Of a stretch of DNA of 64,000 nucleotides, positions 30,096 to 45,649 are shown piece after piece. Source of the stretch: Gemmatimonadota bacterium (lineage in GTDB: Bacteria > Gemmatimonadota > Gemmatimonadetes > Gemmatimonadales > Gemmatimonadaceae); contig JAQBQB010000002.1 of assembly GCA_028287235.1 (NCBI GenBank), positions 310,001-374,000 on the forward strand, read 5' to 3'. Below the pieces are notes generated by a model. That model had not been told where the DNA came from. It searched no databases and saw only the letters and a list, made by a program, of their open reading frames with translations. Numbering within the stretch: position 1 is the first letter of the stretch; every line of letters starts with the position of its first letter. The translations under genes and the position numbers were made by a program.

Positions 30096-31391
30096 TCAAT
30101 ATCGTGGGCTAGCGTCGACCCATGCCTTGAGCTGGTCGAACGTTTGCGCGCCGAGCTTCGATCCGACGAGCACGCCGTCGCGGAACAACAGCGTCGTCGG
30201 CATCTGGTTGCGCGCCTCCGTCAGCGCGAGGCCCTTGCCGGACAGCGGGACTCTCGGCACATGTGTCTGGAAGGCGGCCCATTGCCGGAGAATCTCGCTC
30301 TCGGCGCTGCCGGGGTCGGCGGCCGCGGCCACCGACAGGTCCACGCCGCTCTCGGCGAAATAGGCGCGCGCGCGGTCGAGCTCCGTGAACGCGATCTGGC
30401 TGTGCGCGCTCCACGGCGCCCAGATCATGACGACGTTGAGTTTGTGCGCCGGCTGCGGCGTCTCCGGAAAGATGTCGTTCCACACGCGATGCTTCGGCAG
30501 CGGCTCCGCGACGGCGGGCAACGGCTGCGAAGCCACGTCGAGCACGTTGCTCGCCATCATGAACCCCCGATAGTCTGGCCCGTCGTACCGGAAGCAGAGG
30601 CGGCCGTCCTTCGTCCAGCTCGGAAAGACCGCGGATCCGCTGAGGCCGGGCAGCGTGCGAATCGTGCGCTGCTCGAGATCCACGACCTGAATGTCGTAGC
30701 CGGATCCGTTCGGCTTGAGCGCATGGAAGGCGATGTACCGTCCGTCCCACGAGAAGTCGGCCTTCGCTCCCTTGACGCCCGTGTCGAAGACGTCGTCGCA
30801 GTTGTCGAGGCCGCGCACGACGATGTTGCCCTCGACAAACGTCGTGATGCGTTTGCCATCTCTCGAGATGAGTGGCCGGTCGCCCGTATCCATCTTGCCG
30901 CACGACGCGACGCGTGTGACCGGCAGCTGCGCCTTGTCGCCGTTCAGATAGTAGTAATTGCTGGCGATGGTCAGGATCAGGTCGCGGCCGTCGCGCGTGG
31001 CCCAGCTGTAGTAGTCGCCCAATCCGGCGGGCGAGACGTTCTGGCTCACCGCGCCGGTCCGCATGTCCCGAATGCTCACGCCCACGCCCGAGTAGATGAT
31101 CCTGTTGCCATCCGGTGACCACCAAGCGTCGATTCCGTCCTCGGAGAACAGGATCTTCTTCGTCGCGAGATCCACCACGGTCTCCAGGGTGCGGATGCCG
31201 GTCGGATGACGCGCGTCGGTCTTTTCGGATGCATACACGAGCGTCCTGCCGTCGGGCGAGATGCGCGCGTACGCGAAGACGCCCTCCTTGGGCTTGAGCG
31301 AGAAGAGGCGCGTGTACTTCGGGGTCTGCCCCGCCGCCAGTTGCGCCATCATGGCGGCGGCGAGAGCAAGCAGAAATCTGCGTGGGAGCAT
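30096..31391 (-). CDS. PD40 beta-propeller fused to a thioredoxin-fold domain lacking CxxC
   Basis: This 431-residue protein has a signal peptide (1-21) and then a TolB-like propeller with repeated ISPDGRTLVYAS, WSPDGNRIIYS, FSWDGRYIAFHA and PSWTKDGRLCFRYDG blades. From about residue 315 it continues as a thioredoxin-like domain: KLNVVMIWAPWSAHSQIAFT, MPTTLLFRDGVLVG and FDQLKAWVDA. The usual WCxxC active site reads WSAHS, so no dithiol chemistry is possible there. It is last in the leftward operon that begins with the TonB-dependent receptor, 18 bases after the PD40 gene. Confidence 0.8.
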   Translation of the reverse strand: MLPRRFLLALAAAMMAQLAAGQTPKYTRLFSLKPKEGVFAYARISPDGRTLVYASEKTDARHPTGIRTLETVVDLATKKILFSEDGIDAWWSPDGNRIIYSGVGVSIRDMRTGAVSQNVSPAGLGDYYSWATRDGRDLILTIASNYYYLNGDKAQLPVTRVASCGKMDTGDRPLISRDGKRITTFVEGNIVVRGLDNCDDVFDTGVKGAKADFSWDGRYIAFHALKPNGSGYDIQVVDLEQRTIRTLPGLSGSAVFPSWTKDGRLCFRYDGPDYRGFMMASNVLDVASQPLPAVAEPLPKHRVWNDIFPETPQPAHKLNVVMIWAPWSAHSQIAFTELDRARAYFAESGVDLSVAAAADPGSAESEILRQWAAFQTHVPRVPLSGKGLALTEARNQMPTTLLFRDGVLVGSKLGAQTFDQLKAWVDASPRY

Positions 31392-33357: not shown

Positions 33358-34683
33358 TCAGCGGATGGCGGCGCGCTCAACCTTCACGCCGCCGTCGTCG
33401 CGCGACGTCAAGTACACGGCCCCACCCGTTCCGAACCCGGCGATCGTCCGTCCCGCCGGCACCTGCACCCGATCGATCAGTTCGCCCTTCGGGTTGATCA
33501 CGTCGTAGATCGGACCGGCGATTGCGCCCTGCCGCGTGGCCGTCGTGCGCACCCAGAGATTCCCATCGGCGTCGCCGCGCACCGCCATCGGGCCCACAAA
33601 CACCGGACGATAGTCGGGGAGCTCGCTCGCCGTGACGAAAGTCGCCGGAGGCAGCACCGCCGTGGCATTGGCCGCGCCGGCGCGCGCGCCCTCGAGCGCG
33701 CTGCGCATCCCGTCGGCTCCGCCGCCGCCAACGGCGATCCGCGTCCCCGTCGCAAACCCCATCTCGGCCGCGCGCGCCGCCGCCGCCGGACCGGCCGCCC
33801 GCAAACGGTCATACGCCGTCTTCGCCGAATCGATGACGGCGACCTTGTCTTCGTCCGTCAGCCGCTGCCATTCGTACGGGATCTTCGGGTTCGAGGTGAT
33901 CTTTCCGTCCGCCGCGAGCCGATCGACATGATAGTCGCGCCCGCGCACGATCACGATGGACCCGTTCGGCAACACGGCCCATTCGTCAACGGCCTGCAAC
34001 GGATTGATCTCCGGCATCAGCGTCGCGCCGGCATCCGTGCGCGTGATGTTCATCTTCGTCCGCGCGATCTTGAAATACCCCAGCGTATCCGACTTGCGCG
34101 TCACCAGGTCGATGGCGACCACTGCCGCCGAATCCGGCTGCTCCGGCATGCTGAACGTCTGCGCGTTGGACGCTCCCATCGTGATCGGCGGCAGCGCCGA
34201 ACGGACCGGCGTGCGATACACGAGCCGACCCTTCCCGTCGAAGCCGGGCGATCCGAATGCCGGATTGACCAGTGACGGCGCATCCTGCGACCGCGGCACC
34301 GACATCACGCGTGCGATCGCGCCGCTCGGCGACAGCACGAGCATCGACAACGAGGCGCCGTCCACGAACAGCGTCGAATCGCCGTACGGGATCAGCGCGC
34401 CGCCGCGCGGGCCGTAGGAGTTACCCGCCGTCGACGAATCCAGCACGACGCTGGCGGTGGCCAAGCTGGAATCGAGCAGCACGAGTTGCCGCTTGCCCAC
34501 GTCGTTGACCAGCACTCCGCCGTTCAGCAGCTGGCGCACGGTCGTCACGCTGCCGAACACCGTCTTGGATGCGGCGCTCGGAAGATTGAGCAGGCGGACG
34601 CGCGGTGCCTTCTGCGCCCCGAGCGGCGCGTGGACCGCGGCGCACACCAGGAGCGCGGAGGCCGAAGCTATACGTGTTCTCAT
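33358..34683 (-). CDS. Secreted 6-bladed beta-propeller-like protein
   Basis: This 441-residue protein has a signal peptide ending LGAQ. It consists of repeats with the pattern of NHL/6-bladed propellers: VRQLLNGGVLVNDVGKRQLV, YGDSTLFVDGASLSMLVLSP, FDGKGRLVYR, VLPNGSIVIVRGRDYHVDR and RGDADGNLWVRTT. An alanine-rich helical insertion (about 285-345) interrupts it. No catalytic residues are evident. It lies between the TonB-dependent receptor and the PD40 gene. The protein at 39966 across the divergent promoter has a similar plan, suggesting related roles. Confidence 0.75.
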   Translation of the reverse strand: MRTRIASASALLVCAAVHAPLGAQKAPRVRLLNLPSAASKTVFGSVTTVRQLLNGGVLVNDVGKRQLVLLDSSLATASVVLDSSTAGNSYGPRGGALIPYGDSTLFVDGASLSMLVLSPSGAIARVMSVPRSQDAPSLVNPAFGSPGFDGKGRLVYRTPVRSALPPITMGASNAQTFSMPEQPDSAAVVAIDLVTRKSDTLGYFKIARTKMNITRTDAGATLMPEINPLQAVDEWAVLPNGSIVIVRGRDYHVDRLAADGKITSNPKIPYEWQRLTDEDKVAVIDSAKTAYDRLRAAGPAAAARAAEMGFATGTRIAVGGGGADGMRSALEGARAGAANATAVLPPATFVTASELPDYRPVFVGPMAVRGDADGNLWVRTTATRQGAIAGPIYDVINPKGELIDRVQVPAGRTIAGFGTGGAVYLTSRDDGGVKVERAAIR

Positions 34684-34717: not shown

Positions 34718-37700
34718 TCATCGAACGATCCGGATCTCGGTCGAGCCTCCGCCCGGGATCATGTTCGCGCCGGGAAGCATCATCATACCCTGCCCGAAGC
34801 CCGCGGTGCCCGAGCGAATCGAAGCGAGGAACCGCGTGTCGAGATAGTTCGCGATGAACGGAGAAAGGCGCCGCCGCTGGTCGGACGTCAGCAACGACCG
34901 CACATCCGGCGCGATGCGCAGCAACAAATCCACCGATGCCTCGCGCGCGCGCTTGAACCGGTCGTACGCCTCGTCCTGGCTATACACCTCCGGCAGCGCG
35001 GCGAGATACTTCACGACGGGACTCCAGATCGAGTCGAGACGCAGGGCGAACCACCGATTGAGCGCGGCGATGCTGTCGGCCTGCACGCTCGACAACTTCA
35101 GCGTGTCCGCCTCGCCCAGGATCTGAGCCAGCGGATTGGGCATGCTGCCCGTGCCGTACATCGCTTTCAGCGTCCCCTCGGGCGTCCTCTGGCCGCCGAG
35201 TCGCCGGCCGCGATCGAGCATCATCGACAGCGTCTGCCGCTCGCGCGTGGGACCCACGTCGAAGCGAATCATGGCCGTGAGCGTGACCGGGTTGCGTACC
35301 GTGGTCTGCTGCAGTGCCGTGGCGCCGAACCGCTGGTTGACGTCGTACCTGAACCGCTGCGTGGTCGGATCGAAGCCGCGCACCGCGAGCAGTTGCGACG
35401 ACGGGAAGCCTTGCTGTCCCCATCCGTGCAGATGGCCTTCGCCGTGAGCCAGCAGATCGGCGGCGCCGAGCGGGTTGGAGAGCTGGAAGGTGAGCGCCGC
35501 ACGCTGCGGGAGGCGCAGCTTCGCCGGATTGACGAGGGAGAACGTGAGGTTCGCGCTGGGCATCCACGGGCCGACGCAGCTGTTGCGGCCGGCGAACCGG
35601 CCGAGCTGACGCGACAGGCAGTCGCGCGCCGACCGCGAGCCGTTGGCGAGCAGCGAGCGCATGTTGGCCGCCAGGGAGGAATCCGTGGTGTGCGCCGGAT
35701 CGAAGATGAACGCGCGATCGTTCGCGTAGCCATCGCCGTTGACGTCGCCGGAAACCATCGGGGTGTACGGCAACCCCGACTCCAACCGCCCGTTCCAGCT
35801 CACCTGGAGCGTATTGAAGAAGTTGTATCCCAGGCCATACGTGATCTGGTGGCGCGACGTGAACGACGAGCGTCCCCATCCCGTCTCGAACGGATTGCCA
35901 CTGGTGCTGGCGAATCCGTTGAACTGCTCGCGATTGTCGGCAAACACGTAAGACAGATTCCAGGTATACGAGGTGTTGAAGGTAAACGGCGCCACCCGAA
36001 CCATGAGCTGCCGCGTTTCCGAGGCCAGGTCGGAGCGCAGCACGCTGACGTGATTGAACGTCGGCGAGACGCGCGCGTCACGCGCGCCCACGGCACCCGA
36101 TTGCGGCACGATGCTCGTGGGCTGCGCGAACACCGGCCGGTCCGCTTCGTCCGCGAGGGCGAAACGAACGTTCGGCGCGAAATTGAGGTCGACCGCGCCC
36201 GCCTGATGCGTCGTGCGCGCGAACGTGCCGTCGATGAATAATGAATAGCGGGCATCGAGCACCATTCCGCTCCAGTTCAGATTGCCGCTGGTGCGCCGCG
36301 CCCCGCCATAGTGCGGATCGAATAGCGTGACGTTCGGCACCGTACTGGAGAAGACCGTGCCGCTCGTGCCGTCCGCGCATTGGGTCGGTATGGCCCCCGG
36401 ATTGCCGGCGTAAGTCCCCCACGCAGGCGTCGGTGTCGCGGCTCCCACGCAGGCCAGCTGCTGCAGCGCGTCGGGCAGACCGGTGTTGTCGAGCGCCTGT
36501 CCGATACTACTGACGGTCGACACATTCTGGAACACCCCGACGCCGCCGCGCACCACCGCGCGCGGTCCGCGCACCGCGCCGTTGAATGCGGCGAGCTGCG
36601 ACGACGTCCCGTACGTCCACGCGAACCCGATGCGCGGGCTCAGATACACGCGATTGGGCACGTCGTCGTTCGACAGCCCGTAGGTGCGCTGCACCTCGGA
36701 GTTCAGGGTCGGGTTTGTGAGGAAGCGATTCGCATCCGCGCGCAGCCCGTACTGGATCTGCAAGTCGTTGCTCGGCCGATAGGTATCGCCGAGCGACGCC
36801 GCGCCGACGACCTGCCCCGCGGTGTGCTCCTGCGGCTTCAGCGACCGGGTGAACGCCGTGGGACGATTGGCTGCCAGATCCGCTAGCGAGTTGTAGGTGA
36901 ACGAGCCCAGCGTGTTCAGCGACAGGTTCTGCTCGAAGGACTCGTGGCGCAGCTCTGTGGTGAACTTGAGCCGATGCTTGTTGTCGACGCTCGCCCACGA
37001 AAGCTGATTCATGAAGTTCTGCGACAACGACTGAATGCTGGTGCTCAACGGGCTGCCACCGAACGCCACCGTCGAGACGCCGGTCGTCCCGTTGGAGTTC
37101 AGCCGGACGTTCCCGCTCGGTAGGTCGAGGTATGGCGACGAGTAGCTGCGCTGTCCGCCGATCCCCAGCGACGTCTCGCTCAACACGAATCCATAGTAGT
37201 TCGTGTACCGGCCCTGGAGCGTGGCGTTCCAACTGGTCCGGTCGGTCGCGTGCGACGGAAGCTCCGTCGGCTGCATCGAGGACGGCGTCTGCTTCGTCCA
37301 AGAGCCTGTATAGGTGACGTTGATGGCTTGGCCCGTGGCCGACGTCGGCGGATTGAGATCGAAGCTGCCTAACAGGGTGCCCTGGTCGCTCAGCTTGCGC
37401 CGCGGCGAACGGTCGATCGCCGTCGGAACGTTCGCGGCGCCGAGGAGCGACAGCAGCCGACGCACCGAATCCGGAGAAAGGCCGGCCGCTTGGAGACCCA
37501 AGGGGCCCGTGTTCAGCAACGTCTGAAGATCGTTCGACTGCCGACCGAGCTGATAGCTGACGTAATAGAAGGCCTTGTCGGGGACGATCGGACCGGCGAG
37601 CGATCCGCCGAGCGATCCGCTCGTGTATTGCTGGCCGAGCGCACGGCCGGCTGGGTCGGTCCACTGCAGTTGCGGCGCCGCAAAAACGAAGCTGCCCATC

Positions 37701-38443
37701 CGGCTGCTGATGTTGCTGCCGGGGCGCGTGCGCAGGCTGAACTGCGCGCCGGCGAATCCGCCGCGCGACACATCATATGGATTCAGAGCGAGCGTCGAGC
37801 CGAGGTTCGCGTCGCGCGGCACGTTCGCGCCGCTGAAGCTCAACCCGTTGAGCGTTGTGGTGTTCTGATCCGGCGCCAGGCCAAGCACCGAGAAGCCGTT
37901 CGTGCCGTCCCCGTTCGGGGTCAGCTGCACGCCGGGAATCGACGCGGCCATGGCGGCGAGATTTCCGAGCTGATCCGCGGCCAGCGCCGAGTTCTGCGTC
38001 GTGCGCTCGGTGCCGCTGACGTCAGGCGTGCTCTCATTTCGCCCGACCTTCTGGCGCTGGGCGTTCACCTTGATGGCGTCGAGCTGCACCGCGTTGATCT
38101 GCAGCTTGGCGTCGGCGACGAGGATGTCCTGATCGGCGGTCCGCTTCACCTCGAAGTGCTTGGCGAGGAATCCGATGGCGGCGACCGACACGAAGTAGTC
38201 GCCTTCGTCGCCGGGGAAGACGATCTGAAAGCGGCCGTCCTTGCTGGTTTTCACACTTCGGTTGACGTTGCCTTGGAGCGAGGTCGCCTTGATGGTGGCG
38301 TTTTCAACCGGCTTGTTGTCGGGACCGGTGATCCGGCCTCGAATGACGTCAGACTGCGCCTGTAGACCGGCGCGGACCAGTGGCGAGGCGACGGCGACGG
38401 CGGCGATGGCGGCGACGACGTGGAGCAGGCGGCTGAGACTCAC
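34718..38443 (-). CDS. TonB-dependent receptor with regulatory-like domain and C-terminal helical extension
   Basis: This 1241-residue protein has a signal peptide (1-30) and a carboxypeptidase-regulatory-like domain (about 32-115, IRGRITGPDNKPVENATIKA). The plug (about 150-240, GFSVLGLAPDQNTTTLNGLS) and a long beta-barrel to about residue 1070 follow. The barrel does not end the protein. About 157 further residues (encoded by 34718-35191) are mostly helical (ALNRWFALRLDSIW, LTSDQRRRLSPFIANYLDTR), resembling Spy/CpxP-type periplasmic domains. The GTG at 38441-38443 gives the best signal peptide. It heads a four-gene leftward operon and is divergent from the cysteine-rich peptides. The ligand is unknown. 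Confidence 0.82.
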   Translation of the reverse strand: MSLSRLLHVVAAIAAVAVASPLVRAGLQAQSDVIRGRITGPDNKPVENATIKATSLQGNVNRSVKTSKDGRFQIVFPGDEGDYFVSVAAIGFLAKHFEVKRTADQDILVADAKLQINAVQLDAIKVNAQRQKVGRNESTPDVSGTERTTQNSALAADQLGNLAAMAASIPGVQLTPNGDGTNGFSVLGLAPDQNTTTLNGLSFSGANVPRDANLGSTLALNPYDVSRGGFAGAQFSLRTRPGSNISSRMGSFVFAAPQLQWTDPAGRALGQQYTSGSLGGSLAGPIVPDKAFYYVSYQLGRQSNDLQTLLNTGPLGLQAAGLSPDSVRRLLSLLGAANVPTAIDRSPRRKLSDQGTLLGSFDLNPPTSATGQAINVTYTGSWTKQTPSSMQPTELPSHATDRTSWNATLQGRYTNYYGFVLSETSLGIGGQRSYSSPYLDLPSGNVRLNSNGTTGVSTVAFGGSPLSTSIQSLSQNFMNQLSWASVDNKHRLKFTTELRHESFEQNLSLNTLGSFTYNSLADLAANRPTAFTRSLKPQEHTAGQVVGAASLGDTYRPSNDLQIQYGLRADANRFLTNPTLNSEVQRTYGLSNDDVPNRVYLSPRIGFAWTYGTSSQLAAFNGAVRGPRAVVRGGVGVFQNVSTVSSIGQALDNTGLPDALQQLACVGAATPTPAWGTYAGNPGAIPTQCADGTSGTVFSSTVPNVTLFDPHYGGARRTSGNLNWSGMVLDARYSLFIDGTFARTTHQAGAVDLNFAPNVRFALADEADRPVFAQPTSIVPQSGAVGARDARVSPTFNHVSVLRSDLASETRQLMVRVAPFTFNTSYTWNLSYVFADNREQFNGFASTSGNPFETGWGRSSFTSRHQITYGLGYNFFNTLQVSWNGRLESGLPYTPMVSGDVNGDGYANDRAFIFDPAHTTDSSLAANMRSLLANGSRSARDCLSRQLGRFAGRNSCVGPWMPSANLTFSLVNPAKLRLPQRAALTFQLSNPLGAADLLAHGEGHLHGWGQQGFPSSQLLAVRGFDPTTQRFRYDVNQRFGATALQQTTVRNPVTLTAMIRFDVGPTRERQTLSMMLDRGRRLGGQRTPEGTLKAMYGTGSMPNPLAQILGEADTLKLSSVQADSIAALNRWFALRLDSIWSPVVKYLAALPEVYSQDEAYDRFKRAREASVDLLLRIAPDVRSLLTSDQRRRLSPFIANYLDTRFLASIRSGTAGFGQGMMMLPGANMIPGGGSTEIRIVR

Positions 38444-38962
38444 GGGAGTTTCACGGTCGGAGTGGGGGCCTGTCGAAGCGCGTTGGGCACGGCGTCGGAG
38501 CCCTCGGTGCGCATACAGCAATTGGACCCGCGAACCCCGCTGAGGGTTTCCATGCGACTATGCCACCGCGCCGAGGAAATCGCAACAGTCAGGCAAGCTC
38601 ACGGGCCGTGTCGCGGGGCGGATGATAGCCTTGGCATTAAGAAACACAAATAAACAAATGGCGATTATGAGAAGCTTCTAATATAGTTTTTCGCTCCATC
38701 ACGGGCCGCGCACCGTTTTCTGTCGCTTCCGATGCGACACAACAACATGGCGATGGCTATTAGTATGTCTTAATATAACGATTTGAACGATGCTTGTTAC
38801 AAATCTCTTGACAGTTCGCTCACAAACGCGCACCATACCCCTCGCGAACACCCGACGTTCTCATGGCCGCCGCAGCGTTCAGCGTCGGTGGCGTGCTGCT
38901 CCTTGCGATTTCAGTCGCCTTCCCGAGCGACCACTCCTCACCTTTATCTCTGGAGCATCATC
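38444..38962. promoter_or_regulatory. AT-rich divergent promoter region
   Basis: This 519-base gap separates the receptor operon from the peptide genes. From about 38630 to 38810 it is markedly AT-rich against a GC-rich background. It includes a perfect palindrome AGAAGCTTCT (38670-38679) and TTGACA (38808-38813) followed 17 bases later by CACCAT, a weak rightward promoter. A leftward -10-like CTATATTAG lies near 38680-38688. No gene is supported here; the frame upstream of the first peptide lacks coding character. Confidence 0.5.
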
Positions 38963-39193
38963 ATGAAGAAACAGTTGGCGGTCGTGAGAAACCTGTGCGC
39001 TGCGTCTGCCTTCGCCCTGGTTGGCCTCGGGCTCACTCCGTCTCACAGCGCGGCCGCGGTGAACGCCGCGAACAAGGGGATGGTCTGGTGCACCAACGTT
39101 GGCGAGTGCGTGTACTGCACCGACGGGGCCTGGATGGGCTGCGAACTGTGGGCCTGCGGCGACGTCGTCATGGTCGCGTGCTATGGCGGCTGA
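38963..39193 (+). CDS. Secreted cysteine-rich small peptide 1
   Basis: This 76-residue protein is the first of three tandem paralogues. The leader (MKKQLAVVRNL, hydrophobic AASAFALVGLGLT, then SHSAAA) is a Sec signal with a likely cut after AAA, leaving about 43 residues that begin VNAANKGM. The mature part has six cysteines in CTNVGECVYC, GCELWAC and VACYGG, enough for three disulfides. TGGAG lies nine bases before the ATG. The leader is nearly identical among the three while the core differs, as in precursor-peptide families. Function unknown; secretion and disulfide bonding are inferred. Confidence 0.8.
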   Translation: MKKQLAVVRNLCAASAFALVGLGLTPSHSAAAVNAANKGMVWCTNVGECVYCTDGAWMGCELWACGDVVMVACYGG

Positions 39194-39231
39194 TACCCGC
39201 CGCCACGACTGCCGTTGACAACTGCCTTTCT

Positions 39232-39253
39232 GACCGCCTTCCCGGACGACGAT
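39232..39253 (+). repeat. Conserved 22-base element upstream of peptide 2
   Basis: GACCGCCTTCCCGGACGACG plus AT lies 32 bases before the peptide 2 start codon. The same 22 bases with one change occur at 39569-39590, 31 bases before peptide 3. A diverged form (AGTCGCCTTCCCGAGCGACC) lies at about 38913-38933 before peptide 1. It is either left over from tandem duplication of whole units or a common regulatory element. Confidence 0.7.
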
Positions 39254-39285
39254 GTCCCAGACCCTCTCGCACGTGGAGCCTGTCC

Positions 39286-39513
39286 ATGAAAAATCAATTG
39301 GCTGTTGTCAGAAACCTGCTGGCCGCGTCTGTCTTCGCCCTCGCTGGCCTCGGGCTCACTCCGGCTCGCAGCATGGCCGCGACGAACGCGGCGAACAAAG
39401 GAATTCTCGCGTGTGGCTACTACGATGGTGGCTGGTGTGTCGCCTGCCTGACCACTGATTTCTGCGTGGCCTCCTGCTGTGGTGGCTGTGACCTCATCGA
39501 AATCAGCTGCTGA
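39286..39513 (+). CDS. Secreted cysteine-rich small peptide 2
   Basis: This 75-residue paralogue has leader MKNQLAVVRNLLAASVFALA and a likely cut after SMAA. The mature part of about 42 residues starts TNAANKGI and holds eight cysteines: LACGYY, GWCVAC, FCVASCCGGC and a C-terminal ISC. The spacing C-x2-C, C-x3-CC-x2-C and the terminal Cys are shared with peptide 3. The TGGAG ribosome site before the ATG is conserved in all three. It lies 92 bases after peptide 1 and is preceded by a 22-base element also found before peptide 3. Confidence 0.8.
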   Translation: MKNQLAVVRNLLAASVFALAGLGLTPARSMAATNAANKGILACGYYDGGWCVACLTTDFCVASCCGGCDLIEISC

Positions 39514-39568
39514 GACTCACGCGCGCCGGTGCCCTGCACTGGCGCGCGCTCGCATTTGCGCTCATCCC

Positions 39569-39590
39569 GACCGCCTTCCTGGACGACGAT
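39569..39590 (+). repeat. Conserved 22-base element upstream of peptide 3
   Basis: GACCGCCTTCCTGGACGACG plus AT matches the element at 39232-39253 in 21 of 22 positions and has the same distance to the following start codon. Confidence 0.7.
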
Positions 39591-39621
39591 ACCAACACCC
39601 TCTAATACCTGGAGAATCATC

Positions 39622-39834
39622 ATGAAGAAACACCTTACGGTGGCGAGAAACCTCCTCGCAGCATCTGCGTTCGCGCTGGTCGGGCTTGGCATGACGCCGT
39701 CTCGGAGCGCCGCCGCCGTGAACGACAAGGGCATCATCGTTTGCGTCTCTGATGGAGACTGTTCCGCCTGTACCGATGGTAATTGCGTCGCGGCCTGCTG
39801 CGGAAGCTGCAATATCATTATTGTGGTTTGCTAA
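39622..39834 (+). CDS. Secreted cysteine-rich small peptide 3
   Basis: This 70-residue paralogue has leader MKKHLTVARNLLAASAFALV and a likely cut after SAAA. The mature part of about 38 residues starts VNDKGIIVC and holds eight cysteines: DCSAC, NCVAACCGSC and a C-terminal VVC. It ends on Cys like peptide 2, after a very hydrophobic IIIVV stretch. It starts after CTGGAG. The 131-base gap to the next gene contains no further copy. Co-expression with the downstream propeller, DsbA-like and S41 genes is likely from orientation and spacing. Confidence 0.8.
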   Translation: MKKHLTVARNLLAASAFALVGLGMTPSRSAAAVNDKGIIVCVSDGDCSACTDGNCVAACCGSCNIIIVVC

Positions 39835-39965
39835 TCGTCGTAGCCACGCTGTACTAGAAGTCTCAATCAGAATCCCGTTGGACTTTTGGGCTTGATTGTC
39901 CGGGAAGGCGATCAGCTCGCCGGCGCGATGACGATTCTCCGACGTAACTGATTCCTGGGAGCCAC

Positions 39966-41129
39966 ATGCCGAGCCGCATGCCGACACGCAGTCGTTCCAT
40001 CTTGTTGTTGATTTGTGCCGCCGTGCCGGCGCTCGGCGCCTCCGCCGGCCGGTCGGCAGTCCCCTCCTGCGCGGCGCGCGAGGGCGGAAGCCGATGGGAG
40101 CCATCGCCGGCGCGGCAATACCGAGCGAAGGAAGCGTTCGGACGCGGGACCAACGGGCCGTTCGCGGGCATCCAGAGCGTCGTGGTCGCGAAAGACGCGG
40201 TGTACGCGAACGATTCGAAGAGCAGCGTCGTCACTGTGCTGAGTCCCGACCTCAAGCTCGTCCGCCGTATCGAGCTCCGCGTGCCGACGCAAGGCATGGG
40301 GATAATGATGGGCACCATGGGCAATCGCCGTCTCCTCGACGTCACCGATTCCGCGGTGTACGTCTACGACGGAAAAGGCGTGACGGCATTCTCGCACGCC
40401 GGCGCGTCCCTCGGCGAGACGCGGCTGATTCCGGCGGGCCTCGCGCCGTTCTCCGTCATCGGGATCCAGGCCGTCGGCCCCAACCTGCTGTTCGGCGTGG
40501 ACTCGATCAGCCGCGAGGAGCGCCACCTGCAACTGTGGTCGGCCCCATTGAAAGGCGGAGCAGCGACGCGCGTTCCGTTCGACGTTGCGCTCCGGGGACC
40601 CAAGGGCGGCGTAATGGTCCTCAGCCGCAACAACCCGCGCCCGCTCTGGGTCGCGAGCGGCCGCTGCGTGATCGCCTCGGATGGCGAGAACGAATGGATT
40701 CTTCGTCATGCGCTCGACAGCCGCATGGCGGACACCATCCGCCTGCCGCGTCTCGAAGTGCAGGCCCAAGCCGACGGCGACGACGACAACGAGAAGGCGA
40801 GGGAGCTGCTCGGCGCACTCCAGGCAAGGCGCGGAGTGAAATCGAACCCCCTGGGGGCACCGGGCGTCGGCGGGACCGGCGTCCTGCGATGGACCGACAT
40901 GATCGTCGACCCCGACGGTTACCTCTGGATCGAGTTGCGGCGACCACCGAACGACGCCAAGGCGGCAGTGCACGTGTACCGGGTGAATCTCGCCACGGGC
41001 GCCGTCGAGAAAGACGTCCTGCCCGCGTTCCCGGCGGCCTTCGGCCCACCCGGCAGCTACTACGCACGCGCGACCGATGCATCCGGCACACCGTATGTCG
41101 CGCGCTATGAACTGACCCCTTCGCGATAA
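39966..41129 (+). CDS. Secreted 6-bladed beta-propeller-like protein
   Basis: This 387-residue protein has a signal peptide (SRSILLLICAAVPALGASAG). Its body is propeller-like: GIQSVVVAKDAVYANDSKSS, VTVLSPDLKLVRRIELRVP, LLDVTDSAVYVYDGKGVTAF, GENEWILRHALDSRMADTIR and VDPDGYLWIELRRP. An acidic helical insertion (ADGDDDNEKARELLGAL) lies near residue 265. GGGAGCC precedes the ATG. It follows the three cysteine-rich peptides and precedes the DsbA-like gene by 11 bases. Small secreted peptides beside 6-bladed propellers also occur in Bacteroidota (NVEALA-type loci), a possible analogy. Confidence 0.75.
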   Translation: MPSRMPTRSRSILLLICAAVPALGASAGRSAVPSCAAREGGSRWEPSPARQYRAKEAFGRGTNGPFAGIQSVVVAKDAVYANDSKSSVVTVLSPDLKLVRRIELRVPTQGMGIMMGTMGNRRLLDVTDSAVYVYDGKGVTAFSHAGASLGETRLIPAGLAPFSVIGIQAVGPNLLFGVDSISREERHLQLWSAPLKGGAATRVPFDVALRGPKGGVMVLSRNNPRPLWVASGRCVIASDGENEWILRHALDSRMADTIRLPRLEVQAQADGDDDNEKARELLGALQARRGVKSNPLGAPGVGGTGVLRWTDMIVDPDGYLWIELRRPPNDAKAAVHVYRVNLATGAVEKDVLPAFPAAFGPPGSYYARATDASGTPYVARYELTPSR

Positions 41130-41140
41130 CGAGGCCCTCC

Positions 41141-41800
41141 ATGAAGAAGTTCTCCGAGAAGCTCGTCATGCTCACGAACATCCTGGTCATCGTCGCCTTT
41201 CTCGTGTTCATCGTCGGGCCGAACGGCGTCGTGTACGGCAAGTGGAAGGACTGGCGCACGACCGCGAAAGCGCAGCAGCAAATCGCCGACAAATGGCCTG
41301 CGCTCACCGAGGGCGGCTCGCGCCTGGACACGGGAAAGACGGCGCCGGCGTTCGTCGAATTCGCCGACTATCAGTGCCCCTTCTGCAAGAATGCCGGGCG
41401 GACGATGGAGCAGTGGCTGGCGTCGAATGACACGGGCGTCGTCTTTCGGCACCTGCCGCTCACCGCGATCCACCCGGCCGCCGACGGCGCCGCGCGTACT
41501 GCGATCTGTGCCGAGGCGCAGGGGCGCTTTCGCCAGATGCACCACCAGCTCTTTGCGGACAACACGTGGGAGAAGGACACGAACTGGGTTCGCGAGGCAA
41601 CGGCGGCGGGCGTCCCGGACATCCCGGCCTTCGAGGCCTGCCGCCATAGCGAGAAGACCACTGCCCGGCTCAATGCGGACATGAAGCTCGCCGAGGGCCT
41701 CGGCATCAAGGGCACGCCGACTTACGTCGCGCGCAACGGACTTCGCCAGGGCATCCTCACCGACGATATGCTGCGCCTCCTCACCCAGAAAGGTCAATGA
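41141..41800 (+). CDS. Membrane-anchored DsbA-like thiol oxidoreductase
   Basis: This 219-residue protein has an N-terminal membrane helix (LTNILVIVAFLVFIVGPNGV, 12-31). The thioredoxin-fold domain follows with active site FADYQCPFCKNAGR (CPFC) and the cis-proline loop GIKGTPTYV. A helical insertion (MHHQLFADNTWEKDTNWVRE) lies between them. It should catalyse disulfide formation or exchange outside the cytoplasm. Its place eleven bases after the propeller gene and downstream of three cysteine-rich secreted peptides suggests it oxidises those peptides. That link is inference from context. A perfect 14-bp hairpin follows. Confidence 0.88.
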   Translation: MKKFSEKLVMLTNILVIVAFLVFIVGPNGVVYGKWKDWRTTAKAQQQIADKWPALTEGGSRLDTGKTAPAFVEFADYQCPFCKNAGRTMEQWLASNDTGVVFRHLPLTAIHPAADGAARTAICAEAQGRFRQMHHQLFADNTWEKDTNWVREATAAGVPDIPAFEACRHSEKTTARLNADMKLAEGLGIKGTPTYVARNGLRQGILTDDMLRLLTQKGQ

Positions 41801-41828
41801 GTCTGGGCGAGTGAACCTGATCAAGACC

Positions 41829-41875
41829 AACGCCAACCACGATTGAGGGCGCCGGTTACCGTCGTGGTTGGCGTT
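41829..41875. terminator. Long perfect hairpin after the DsbA-like gene
   Basis: AACGCCAACCACGA (41829-41842) and TCGTGGTTGGCGTT (41862-41875) form a perfect 14-bp stem with a 19-base loop, 28 bases after the stop codon. No T-run follows on either strand. It may attenuate or stabilise the transcript between the peptide/DsbA genes and the S41 peptidase. Confidence 0.55.
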
Positions 41876-42009
41876 GCCGCCAGGCAAGAGCGGCGGCGCG
41901 CGTCACGCCGTTCTTGCTGCTCGCGGATTAATCGAACCCTCATGTTGGCGCAATGGTCCTCGCGCCTGGTCGGCCGTATCTATCAGCCAACCACGGGCTC
42001 GGAGACCCC

Positions 42010-43353
42010 ATGACGCATTCGTCATTGCGCACCGCCGTAGTCGCCGTACTAGCAGCGCTCCTCGCAACAGCGTCGGCCGGCGCACAAGCCGCCAATCTGA
42101 CTACCACACCCGCTGGCCGCGTGCTCAAGGCCTGGCTCGACGCGATCAACAGCGGTGACACGGTGCGGATGAGCACCTACGTGCGACAATACGAGCCTGC
42201 TGCCTCCGTCGCCGAACTGGCGGCACGCCACCAAAGAATCGGCAATATCGAGCTGCTCACGGTGGAGCGCAGCGAGCCGCGGCACATTGAATTCACGATA
42301 CACTCCGCGGCGCAGAGTATCGACGGTTTCGCATATCTCGACGTCACTGCGGCCGAGCCGCCGCAGGTGGGCCTGTTCCCGCTCATCGTGCCTTTTCCGC
42401 AAGGCGGAACCCTCGCGTCGCTCTCGGTCGACGCCGCGGCCCGCGCGCAGGCGATCGATGGCGCGAGCGCGCAGTTGGATACGTTCTACGTCTTTCCCGA
42501 GGTCGCTCGGCGCCTCGCCGATTCGTTGCACGCGCGTCTGAAGCGCGGCATGTACGATCGCTACACCAACGGCGTGATGTTCGCCAAGGCGCTCAACGAC
42601 GAGGTGCGCGAGATCTCGCACGATAAGCACATGGGCGTGCAATACTCGGTGAATCCGATTCCGGTGCGGCCGCCGGGGCCCCCGCCGGCGCCGACGGCCG
42701 AGCAGTTGAAGCGCATGCAATCACAGATGGACGGCGTGAACTGCGGCTTCCAGAAGGTCGAGCGGCTCGACGGCAACGTGGGCTATCTCAAGTTCGATTT
42801 CTTCGCTGACCCGGAGATGTGCGGCCCAACGGCATCGGCGGCGATGAACTTTGTCGCCGGGGCGCGGGCCCTGATCGTCGACATGCGTGAGAACGGCGGC
42901 GGCAGCCCGGCGATGGTGACATACGTCGCGTCGTACCTGTTCGACGACTCGACGCACCTCAACGATCTCTGGGATCGCAAATCGGGCAACACCACGCAGT
43001 TCTGGACCAAGCCGGGTGTGTCGGGCAGAAAGTTCGGCGCTGACAAGCCGGTGTTCGTGCTGACGTCGTCGCGCACATTCTCCGGTGCGGAGGAGTACAC
43101 GTACGATCTGAAGACGCAGAAGCGGGCGACGATCGTCGGCGAAACGACGGGTGGCGGCGCGCATCCGGTGGCGGGACGGCGAATCAACGAGCATTTCATT
43201 ATTGCCGTGCCTGGCGCGCGCGCGATCAATCCGATCACGCACACGAATTGGGAGGGCGTCGGCGTCGAGCCGGATGTCAAAGTGCCGGCAAAGGACGCAC
43301 TTGCGACTGCGCTGCGGCTCGTGAATGAGAAGGTGGGGGCGGCGAGGCCGTAG
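42010..43353 (+). CDS. S41 family (C-terminal processing-type) peptidase
   Basis: This 447-residue protein has a signal peptide ending SAGAQA and an N-terminal helper region with an NTF2-like look (RVLKAWLDAINSGDTVRMST). The S41 domain contains VGYLKFDFF, ALIVDMRENGGGSPAMV and the nucleophile region VFVLTSSRTFSGAEEYTYDL with the catalytic Ser, then GETTGGGAHPV. No PDZ domain is evident, as in the IRBP-like branch. GGAGA lies four bases before the ATG. It follows the DsbA-like gene by 209 bases with a hairpin between, so co-regulation is possible rather than certain. It could process peptides outside the cytoplasm. Confidence 0.88.
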   Translation: MTHSSLRTAVVAVLAALLATASAGAQAANLTTTPAGRVLKAWLDAINSGDTVRMSTYVRQYEPAASVAELAARHQRIGNIELLTVERSEPRHIEFTIHSAAQSIDGFAYLDVTAAEPPQVGLFPLIVPFPQGGTLASLSVDAAARAQAIDGASAQLDTFYVFPEVARRLADSLHARLKRGMYDRYTNGVMFAKALNDEVREISHDKHMGVQYSVNPIPVRPPGPPPAPTAEQLKRMQSQMDGVNCGFQKVERLDGNVGYLKFDFFADPEMCGPTASAAMNFVAGARALIVDMRENGGGSPAMVTYVASYLFDDSTHLNDLWDRKSGNTTQFWTKPGVSGRKFGADKPVFVLTSSRTFSGAEEYTYDLKTQKRATIVGETTGGGAHPVAGRRINEHFIIAVPGARAINPITHTNWEGVGVEPDVKVPAKDALATALRLVNEKVGAARP

Positions 43354-43546: not shown

Positions 43547-45550
43547 TCACGACGCCGGCAAGACCGCCGCCTCCGTCGAGAAGTCGATGAACCCCCGCTC
43601 GGGATCGGTGGCGAGGAGCACCACCCCGACCGAATCCCCGACCCGCAGCCCGCGTCCGCCGCGAACGAGCCGGCCCTCGACGCCGTCGGGAAGCGTCGTG
43701 ATCCACGTCGCGCGGCGCGACGTTCCAGACACCACGGCGGGAAAGTGTTCCCCCACCCGATCCAGGAGCGCACGCGCCGCCACACGCTTCCGTTCCAGCC
43801 GGTCGAGCTTCGACGGCTCGAGGCCCGCACCATACTCGAAATCGATGAAGCCATGCACGCTGTCGGTGCCGATCAATTTCACCGAGACGTTCATGCCGAC
43901 GGCAAGCCGCTTGTAGCCGCGAACGACCCGCCCTTCGGCCGATCCATCGACGAGGCGCACGTACGTCCCACTCTCCGAGACGCCCGTCACCTGGGCGTCG
44001 AACGTCTCGCCGATTCGCGGACGCAGCCGGTCGGCCGCGGCCTTTTTGCGACGGCTTCGCGCCAGCTTCCGGGCCGCGTCATCGGCCTCGTGCGCGAAGT
44101 CGATGTGCCCCCTGATCGGATCGGCGACGACGAGCGTGAGTCGCACCGTGTCGCCGACGTCGAGCCCGCGTGCGCCACTGACGATGCGGCCTTCGACGGG
44201 AGGACTCAGCAGACGCGCGTATGTCCCCTTCGCCGATGCGGCCGTCACGATCGCCGCGAAACTTTCGCCGACACGCTCGGCCAGCATCGACGCGCCGGCG
44301 ATCTTGCGCATCGTGCGCTCGACCTTGCGCGCCGCGACACCGCGTTCGGTGCAGCGTCGCGCGATCTCCGTGAGGTCGGCGTCCGAATACGGCGCTGGCC
44401 CCTTCGACTCGACGGCGAACAGCATGCGCTGCGTCACGAGGTCGGCGAATCGCCGATTGGGGGCCGTAGAATGCACGTAGTCGGCGATCGCGAGGCCAAA
44501 ATGTCCCGCGTCGCGCCGGCTCCCGAGGCGCCGCTCGAGCACATAGATCCCGGGTCCGAGCAACTTGACCACGGAGAGCGACAGGTCCGCGAAGTGGTCG
44601 GGGTCGGCCGCTTTGCGGCGCGCGAGAAAGTCACCCAGGGCAATGGAGTCCGGCTTCTCGGGCAGCACCTCTCCGACCTCCGCCGCAAGCGACACGATCC
44701 GGTCCCAGCGCTGCGGCTCTCGCACCACGCGCCGCAGCGACACCGAGCCGTGCTCCAGCAGATATGTCGCGACCGTTCGATTGGCGGCGACCATGAAGTC
44801 CTCGATCAGATCGCGCGCCCGATTGCGCCGAGCGACCGCGAGATCGACGACCTTGCCATTCACCACGACGGGCGATGCCTCGATGCTCTCGAGGTTGAGC
44901 GCCCCGGCACGATCGCGCGCCGTCCGCAGTCGTTGCGCGGCTTCATCCTGTAAGAGCAGCTGCTCGCGCATCCGGGGCGATCGCGCGAGCGCCGCGGGCT
45001 CCGGTCCTGCTCCGTCCAGCCACGTGCCCACCTCGTTGTACGTGAGCTTGGCGTGGTTGTGCAACAGGCCGCGATAGACGGAGGCATTGTTCAGCGATCC
45101 ATCGAGGGCGACGTCGAACTCGATGATCACCGCCAACCGATCTTCGCCTTCGTTGAGCGAGGTGAGATCGGTCGAGAGCCGTTCGGGGAGCATGGGAAAG
45201 ACCGCGACGCCGGCGTACACCGACGTGGTGTTCGATGCGGCGTGCGCGTCGGCGGCCGAGCCCTGTGGAACGAGCGTGCCGACGTCGGCGACGCCGATTC
45301 GGATTCGGATCGAGCCGTCGGGCAATCGCTCGCCGACCTCGACCTGATCCAGGTCGCGCGACTCCCGGTTGTCGATCGACGACCAGAGTTGTGCGCGCAA
45401 GTCTCGCGCGCCCGCCGGAAGCGGAGCGTCGTCGAGCCGCTCGACCTCGCGAACGATCTCGGCGGAAAACTCCGGCTCGAACCCGTTCTCGCGCATGACC
45501 GCCGTGGCGGCGCTGCGAAGGCTCGGGCGTTGCTGTTTGTCAGGCATCAT
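43547..45550 (-). CDS. RNB-domain (RNase II/R family) exoribonuclease with three C-terminal S1 domains
   Basis: This 667-residue protein lacks the N-terminal cold-shock domains of RNase II/R and enters the RNB domain early. The signature is SIDNRESRDLDQ, then RIRIGVADVGTLVPQG, SNTTSVYAGVAVFPMLPE and HFGLAIADYVHSTAPNRRFA. The usual DFDD metal motif reads DLDQ, with Gln in place of the last Asp. Three S1-like repeats follow (FAAIVTAASAKGTYARLLSP, FDAQVTGVSESGTYVRLVDG, FPAVVSGTSRRATWITTLPD). It should degrade RNA from 3' to 5'. The ATG at 45548-45550 is adjacent to a second ATG; neither has a clear ribosome site. Confidence 0.85.
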   Translation of the reverse strand: MMPDKQQRPSLRSAATAVMRENGFEPEFSAEIVREVERLDDAPLPAGARDLRAQLWSSIDNRESRDLDQVEVGERLPDGSIRIRIGVADVGTLVPQGSAADAHAASNTTSVYAGVAVFPMLPERLSTDLTSLNEGEDRLAVIIEFDVALDGSLNNASVYRGLLHNHAKLTYNEVGTWLDGAGPEPAALARSPRMREQLLLQDEAAQRLRTARDRAGALNLESIEASPVVVNGKVVDLAVARRNRARDLIEDFMVAANRTVATYLLEHGSVSLRRVVREPQRWDRIVSLAAEVGEVLPEKPDSIALGDFLARRKAADPDHFADLSLSVVKLLGPGIYVLERRLGSRRDAGHFGLAIADYVHSTAPNRRFADLVTQRMLFAVESKGPAPYSDADLTEIARRCTERGVAARKVERTMRKIAGASMLAERVGESFAAIVTAASAKGTYARLLSPPVEGRIVSGARGLDVGDTVRLTLVVADPIRGHIDFAHEADDAARKLARSRRKKAAADRLRPRIGETFDAQVTGVSESGTYVRLVDGSAEGRVVRGYKRLAVGMNVSVKLIGTDSVHGFIDFEYGAGLEPSKLDRLERKRVAARALLDRVGEHFPAVVSGTSRRATWITTLPDGVEGRLVRGGRGLRVGDSVGVVLLATDPERGFIDFSTEAAVLPAS

Positions 45551-45578
45551 AGAGGACAGGGCAATTAACAATCCCCAA

Positions 45579-45616
45579 GCAAAAACCGCCGGCGCACAAA
45601 TGTGCCCCGGCGGTTT
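45579..45616 (-). terminator. Rho-independent terminator on the minus strand
   Basis: AAACCGCCGG (45583-45592) pairs with CCGGCGGTTT (45607-45616), with an inner GCACA/TGTGC pair. On the minus strand the stem is followed by a run of five T. It lies 33 bases downstream (minus strand) of the tRNA-Gly remnant at 45650 and is best read as the original terminator of that tRNA gene. Confidence 0.8.
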
Positions 45617-45649
45617 CAATTTCTCTTTTGGTGTAACCACGTAGTACAG

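Follow-up and report, generated by a model that had tools for sequence, protein, structure and literature searches.

Introduction

Small secreted peptides have been described beside propellers and beside thioredoxin-fold proteins. In Bacteroidota, NVEALA peptides (PF14055) adjoin six-bladed propellers, and pediocin clusters possess in PedC/BrcD (TIGR01295) a dedicated thioredoxin-fold disulfide protein. The methylamine dehydrogenase operon encodes the small Cys-rich MauA together with the propeller MauB and the thioredoxin-like MauD. In the TMcin cluster, the cluster-encoded DsbA-like TmcD forms the disulfide needed for activity; TMcin has one disulfide and a transmembrane helix, and its cluster an ABC exporter and a site-2 (intramembrane) protease, with no propeller (PMC13252029). 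Here we analyze a locus within 64,000 nucleotides of a Gemmatimonadota bacterium (GenBank assembly GCA_028287235.1, contig JAQBQB010000002.1, positions 310,001 to 374,000; hereafter the window, whose numbering is used throughout), in which three tandem genes for secreted Cys-rich peptides are followed by genes for a secreted propeller and a membrane-anchored DsbA-like protein. The locus probably represents a module that is spread across Gemmatimonadota and produces small disulfide-rich peptides, hypervariable and located outside the cytoplasm.

The module resembles the NVEALA loci in that the gene for a small secreted Cys-bearing peptide adjoins that for a six-bladed propeller. To our knowledge, neither a dedicated DsbA-like gene nor DsbA-propeller fusions are known for NVEALA loci. 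Membership of the NVEALA family was rejected, as the PF14055 model, which does detect Bacteroides, matched nothing in 198 Gemmatimonadota genomes of the class and none of the peptides described here. With TMcin and pediocin the module shares a ribosomal secreted peptide whose disulfides are formed by the cluster's own thioredoxin-fold protein, and by analogy such bacteriocin clusters may serve as precedent for a dedicated DsbA-like protein. Unlike the module here, however, neither has a propeller, three to four disulfides or phylum-wide hypervariability, and PedC/BrcD belongs to a different family from the DsbA-like protein of the window (TIGR01295, 11.6 bits, E 0.19, against a curated cut-off of 120 bits). 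The methylamine dehydrogenase operon likewise unites a small Cys-rich secreted protein, a propeller and a thioredoxin-fold maturation protein, whereas the module has neither a sequence match to it nor its conserved Trp pair, and its peptides are tandem and hypervariable. We found no description of the combination of peptide, propeller and DsbA in open-access papers. The module extends a known kind, in which secreted disulfide peptides are served by an oxidoreductase of their own, and has a fair chance of being a kind of its own.

Peptide genes of the window

The three peptides, all encoded on the + strand and characterized by leader comparison and substitution patterns, have 76 (38963-39193), 75 (39286-39513) and 70 residues (39622-39834) and consist of a Sec leader and a core with 6, 8 and 8 Cys, respectively. 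Residues 1-32 form a near-identical leader with an AxA-type site at its end, that of peptide 1 containing an additional Cys beyond the six of its core, and over the whole length peptides 2 and 3 are 60-62% identical to peptide 1. The first-pass annotation of this DNA had described exactly such a set of three paralogous secreted peptides with a near-constant leader and diverged cores, and the open reading frames (ORFs), identities and Cys counts agree with it. Each start is preceded by a GGAG/GAGG-type ribosome-binding site (judged by eye). A block of 140 nucleotides (nt) comprising the ribosome-binding site, the leader and the start of the core is directly repeated in three in-register copies (38951-39749, +), spaced by 323 and 336 nt, with copies 2 and 3 being 79% and 69% identical to copy 1. 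Because this block repeats in register, the gene trio arose by tandem duplication. In the upstream spacer, a 22-nt stretch is also kept between copies 2 and 3 of the peptide gene.

The proportion of nonsynonymous changes (pN) is lower than that of synonymous changes (pS) for leaders and cores alike in all three pairs of window peptides, and the peptide ORFs are therefore under coding constraint. Core pN is 0.33-0.38 versus 0.13-0.17 for the leaders, in a set in which synonymous changes are near saturation. Dense CxxC and CC motifs are seen in the peptides. The conserved leader and variable core are those expected of precursors of bacteriocins or of ribosomally synthesized and post-translationally modified peptides, the leader here being an ordinary Sec signal.

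Recurrence of the module in Gemmatimonadota

A profile of the window peptides matched only the peptides themselves within their own genome; no convincing relative was found in 394 genomes of the class, and none was confirmed in one species-level genome collection. Given the absence of sequence relatives, the module was traced by its neighbour genes, by the propeller and then by the DsbA-like gene. Propeller homologues are present in 24 other genomes of 388. At L090, L082, L079/L093 and L075, a differing small secreted Cys-rich peptide is encoded directly upstream of the propeller (two in L082), and immediately downstream of it L090, L082, L079 and L075 carry a homologous DsbA-like gene, L093 being cut by the contig end. 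The same order of peptide, propeller and DsbA is found in L196, a record named Gemmatimonadetes, and together these triads (L075, L079, L082, L090, L196) span other genera and families. When the DsbA-like family was used as query, the best further loci again had unrelated small Cys peptides with Sec leaders just upstream. Three tandem peptides of 59-60 residues occur at L170/L275, from a genome belonging to the same genus as the window. The first-pass annotation had proposed a profile search with the peptides and a look for recurring neighbours, and had held that homologous peptides occurring without the DsbA-like or propeller genes would speak against a common function. The peptides turned out to have no homologues, the arrangement does recur, and analogous peptides accompany those genes.

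Recurrence was counted at 80 non-redundant DsbA-like loci sampled from the best DsbA hits, with many of the sampled genomes being metagenome assemblies; 78 loci could be tested for an upstream peptide, defined heuristically as a small secreted ORF bearing six or more Cys, no more than 900 nt upstream and on the same strand. Such a peptide was present at 34 of the 78 loci, versus 1/78 on the opposite strand, 14/1560 in dinucleotide shuffles and 5/78 for DsbA genes mainly of other phyla. (This count supersedes an earlier control with a crude gene caller, 10/34 versus 6/165, which missed many DsbA genes.) Among the five control matches, one is L195 and three are a conserved Myxococcota protein of 112-116 residues; leaving L195 aside, the figure for DsbA genes of other phyla is about 4/77. 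L195 (JAPPHB010000102.1) is labelled Gammaproteobacteria and carries a Gemmatimonadota-type peptide and a DsbA-propeller fusion; its sequence matches G287:C53, from a genome assigned to the class, and it is probably a mislabelled Gemmatimonadota bin. The Myxococcota protein (L218, L225, L238), with its many Cys (CLVHxDC...CVDPCEGDLxCP), is encoded upstream of DsbA genes and may be a further small secreted protein that is linked to DsbA.

At 54 of the 80 loci the DsbA-like gene has a homologous propeller beside it or fused to it, or at about 36/62 when about 18 loci that helped build the propeller hidden Markov models are excluded; the controls gave 0/192 for control genes of Gemmatimonadota and 0/79 for DsbA frames of other phyla. 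At 13 non-redundant loci (for example L116, L122, L141 and the related L128/L195) the transmembrane segment, DsbA and propeller are fused in one chain of about 590-680 residues, and 10 of the 13 have a detected peptide. Being joined in one chain would put DsbA and propeller on one side of the membrane, which suggests that they share a substrate. A different kind of fusion is possibly represented by L077:7452-8570, near a peptide/propeller pair, where the N-terminus of a propeller bears a short Cys-rich stretch (CEEPCG) that may be a peptide joined to it. The association was also put to a predictive test: two of three shortened loci scored as lacking a peptide revealed an 8-Cys peptide once they were extended.

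A second pair of peptide and DsbA genes was observed in the window genome itself (L314:995-1989, G000:C4 near 257.8 kb; also L327:7321 onwards). Its secreted Cys-rich peptide has 66 residues and is followed by its own divergent DsbA-like gene and then by an ABC-permease-like gene.

Peptide cores

The number of Cys is even in 55 of 56 collected cores, 35 of which have six and 10 eight. The corresponding binomial P of 8e-16 is inflated by relatedness, and a few of the 56 ORFs are probably spurious; the excess of even numbers is nonetheless clear and fits cysteines that are all paired in disulfides. In an orthologue set (L113, L114, L115, L117, L138, L139), mean pN is 0.31 for the core, 0.08 for the leader and 0.07 for the adjacent DsbA, so that the core, with a pN about four times that of the leader or DsbA, is the fast-evolving part, and yet the Cys positions are largely kept. 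A pN/pS of 0.79 in the best orthologue set does not establish positive selection on the cores.

The DsbA-like protein and the propeller

The DsbA-like oxidoreductase (41141-41800, +; 219 residues) matches Pfam DSBA (PF01323) with an E of 2.8e-15 and has the features of that family, with a CPFC active site and a T-P cis-Pro loop (GTPT), as well as a single N-terminal membrane helix and further invariant Cys at 123 and 167. The membrane-anchored CPFC thioredoxin-fold protein noticed at first reading is thereby borne out. Its closest solved structures (3gyk, 4xvw, 6nen) are of the periplasmic ScsC/Com1 type, from which it differs in being membrane-anchored, in falling into Gemmatimonadota-only clades and in being linked or fused to a propeller. 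A rapidly built tree of 125 sequences, whose deep forks are provisional, places all peptide-linked DsbAs within Gemmatimonadota-only clades. The clade of the window protein comprises 47 rows (support 99), with a detected peptide at 28 of them, versus none of five sampled Gemmatimonadota DsbAs that branch among other phyla. Judged from sequence, the DsbA-like protein of the module is a dedicated one. The window genome also encodes a housekeeping-type DsbA beside a VKOR-like membrane protein (L310, G000:C23 near 521 kb; named by eye), and these two probably act as its general source of disulfides.

The secreted propeller (39966-41129, +; 387 residues) matched no Pfam or NCBIfam family. However, a profile of its family, built with homologues from other genomes, matches the solved six-bladed NHL propellers of TRIM2/3/71 (best E 2.2e-12), which upholds the earlier description of a secreted beta-propeller following the peptides on the same strand. 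The likeness to the NHL-repeat propellers (TRIM2/3/71, Thin) is thus one of fold by profile, whereas the family described here is secreted, bacterial and without a Pfam or NCBIfam model. Its members are strongly diverged (25-31% identity), Cys 35 and Cys 234 are invariant, and the invariant residues include no His and form no evident active site.

Boundary of the unit and surrounding genes

The DsbA-like gene is followed by a hairpin (41828-41876, +), formed by a perfect inverted repeat of 15 bp (41828-41842/41862-41876), that likely marks the end of the unit of peptides, propeller and DsbA, although it has no T-run, is therefore non-canonical as a terminator and was not reported by a terminator scan. 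It is followed by a secreted S41 peptidase (42010-43353, +; Pfam E 3.4e-21), whose likelier start is 42010, where its signal peptide begins. The peptidase had been suggested at first to trim the peptides, a role that gained no support. We reject it as a member of the module and place it outside: the strong hairpin lies in between, and tblastn with the S41 protein found no relative at about 240 other study loci. Moreover, a normal Sec signal peptide requires no special protease. Neither a dedicated exporter nor a leader protease nor an immunity gene was recognized in the inspected neighbourhoods of the window and the triads; given the Sec route, a dedicated exporter is unnecessary.

Divergent from the peptides, and left out of the first-pass annotation, is an outer-membrane barrel (CarboxypepD_reg, plug and OMP_b-brl_4; 34718-38443, -). 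Barrel relatives adjoin several peptide/DsbA loci (L170, L161/L232, L154, L188 and others). The family has eight matches in the window genome (the window copy and L303-L309), one of them a fragment, and the other paralogues have no peptides beside them. The barrel was for this reason rejected as a fixed component and is a possible accessory of the module. On its strand follows a gene for a secreted protein of 429 residues (33358-34647, -), a relative of which is paired with two further barrel copies elsewhere in the genome. Three secreted genes lie behind the barrel, two of them encoding PD40 propellers. One of these propellers (30096-31352, -) ends in a thioredoxin-like domain that has no CxxC (WAPWSAHS), and relatives of it occur near peptide/DsbA loci in L283 and L284. 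On the other side, an RNB-domain exonuclease with S1 domains (43547-45640, -) is only about 54-57% identical to its genus homologues, and a second copy exists elsewhere in the same genome (L321). The flanking RNB gene is a divergent copy special to the window genome and hence uninformative for synteny.

Discussion

The proposal that this locus makes and oxidizes disulfide-rich peptides gains support from a recurrence above all controls, from the 13 fusions and from the even Cys numbers. In the mechanism we propose, Sec would export each precursor and signal peptidase would remove the conserved leader. The tethered DsbA-like enzyme would then oxidize the Cys pairs into three to four disulfides, as its dedicated clade, its adjacency to the peptides, the fusions and the even Cys numbers suggest; this oxidase activity on the neighbouring peptides is predicted from gene context. 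Adjacency and the one-chain fusions further suggest that the NHL-type propeller shares with the DsbA-like enzyme both its peptide substrate and its side of the membrane, where the propeller would most likely bind the peptide during or after oxidation as a chaperone, partner subunit or receptor. Re-oxidation of the DsbA-like enzyme would probably fall to the VKOR-like protein encoded beside the housekeeping DsbA.

Several observations weigh against the recurring module, in addition to the overlap between the counted loci and those used for the propeller models. At about 46% of the sampled DsbA-like loci no peptide was detected within 1.9 kb, and the closest DsbA relative, L322, showed none even when its sequence was extended. 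At 10 of the 80 loci a peptide and a DsbA occur with no recognized propeller. Finally, AlphaFold, given just three sequences, modelled the propeller with a predicted local distance difference test score (pLDDT) of 37.5, too low for the model to be of use.

As to what the peptides are for, we tentatively favour a secreted effector against competitors. Ranked after it, and rather unlikely, is a role in signalling or recognition, in which the peptide would be a ligand and the propeller its receptor or carrier, an arrangement that might also be suspected for the NVEALA-type peptides of Bacteroidota and their six-bladed propellers. The co-occurrence of the two would be expected in this case, as would the divergence of the propellers (25-31% identity) if they track changing peptides, and the plug-bearing barrels beside several loci could be uptake receptors. 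However, neither a regulator nor a signalling kinase was observed in the triads, none of the 198 genomes of the class has a match to the NVEALA model, and the DsbA-propeller fusions favour maturation over reception.

A metal-binding or structural role ranks lower still among the end uses and appears unlikely. In its specific form, with the peptides as secreted, metallothionein-like metal binders or redox buffers and the DsbA-like protein as their reductase or isomerase, we consider it improbable. Although the dense CxxC and CC motifs would suit such peptides, and the relatives of the DsbA-like protein include copper-resistance proteins of the ScsC type, even Cys numbers in 55 of 56 cores better suit paired disulfides, and no metal transporter or resistance gene lies beside the inspected triads.

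It is more doubtful again, and also ranked behind the effector role, that the peptide serves a redox enzyme as its small, Cys-rich subunit, bearing a cofactor in the manner of methylamine dehydrogenase with the propeller as the heavy subunit. The same three kinds of part are indeed present. However, no peptide has a Pfam match to the light-chain family, and peptide 3 contains no Trp, so that it could form no tryptophylquinone; membership of that family was accordingly rejected. Tandem peptides with hypervariable cores are also ill-suited to a catalytic subunit, and the invariant residues of the propeller offer neither a His nor an evident active site. That ordinary secreted small ORFs merely lie by an ordinary periplasmic DsbA by chance is very improbable: the window peptides have no sequence relatives and peptide calling is heuristic, but the strand, shuffle, other-phyla and propeller controls and the DsbA tree all oppose it.

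Returning to a module for disulfide-rich peptides, its broadest form, which we put forward tentatively, would be a phylum-wide peptide factory in which a tethered DsbA and a peptide-binding NHL propeller oxidize hypervariable secreted mini-proteins that act between cells as toxins or ligands. Such a factory might, with the same reserve, parallel in bacteria the venom peptides of animals or the defensins of plants, with a folding enzyme of its own. The DsbA-propeller fusions raise the question of how a folding enzyme and a rapidly changing substrate stay matched. As the peptides are unrelated in sequence, they escape ordinary searches by homology, and the DsbA-like gene and the propeller serve as a handle instead. 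Little is understood of how Gemmatimonadota, an almost uncultured phylum that is abundant in soil, interact with other cells. If the recurring module is true, it would provide a minable repertoire of effectors or signals for the phylum, from which about 50 different cores have been collected from the present sample.

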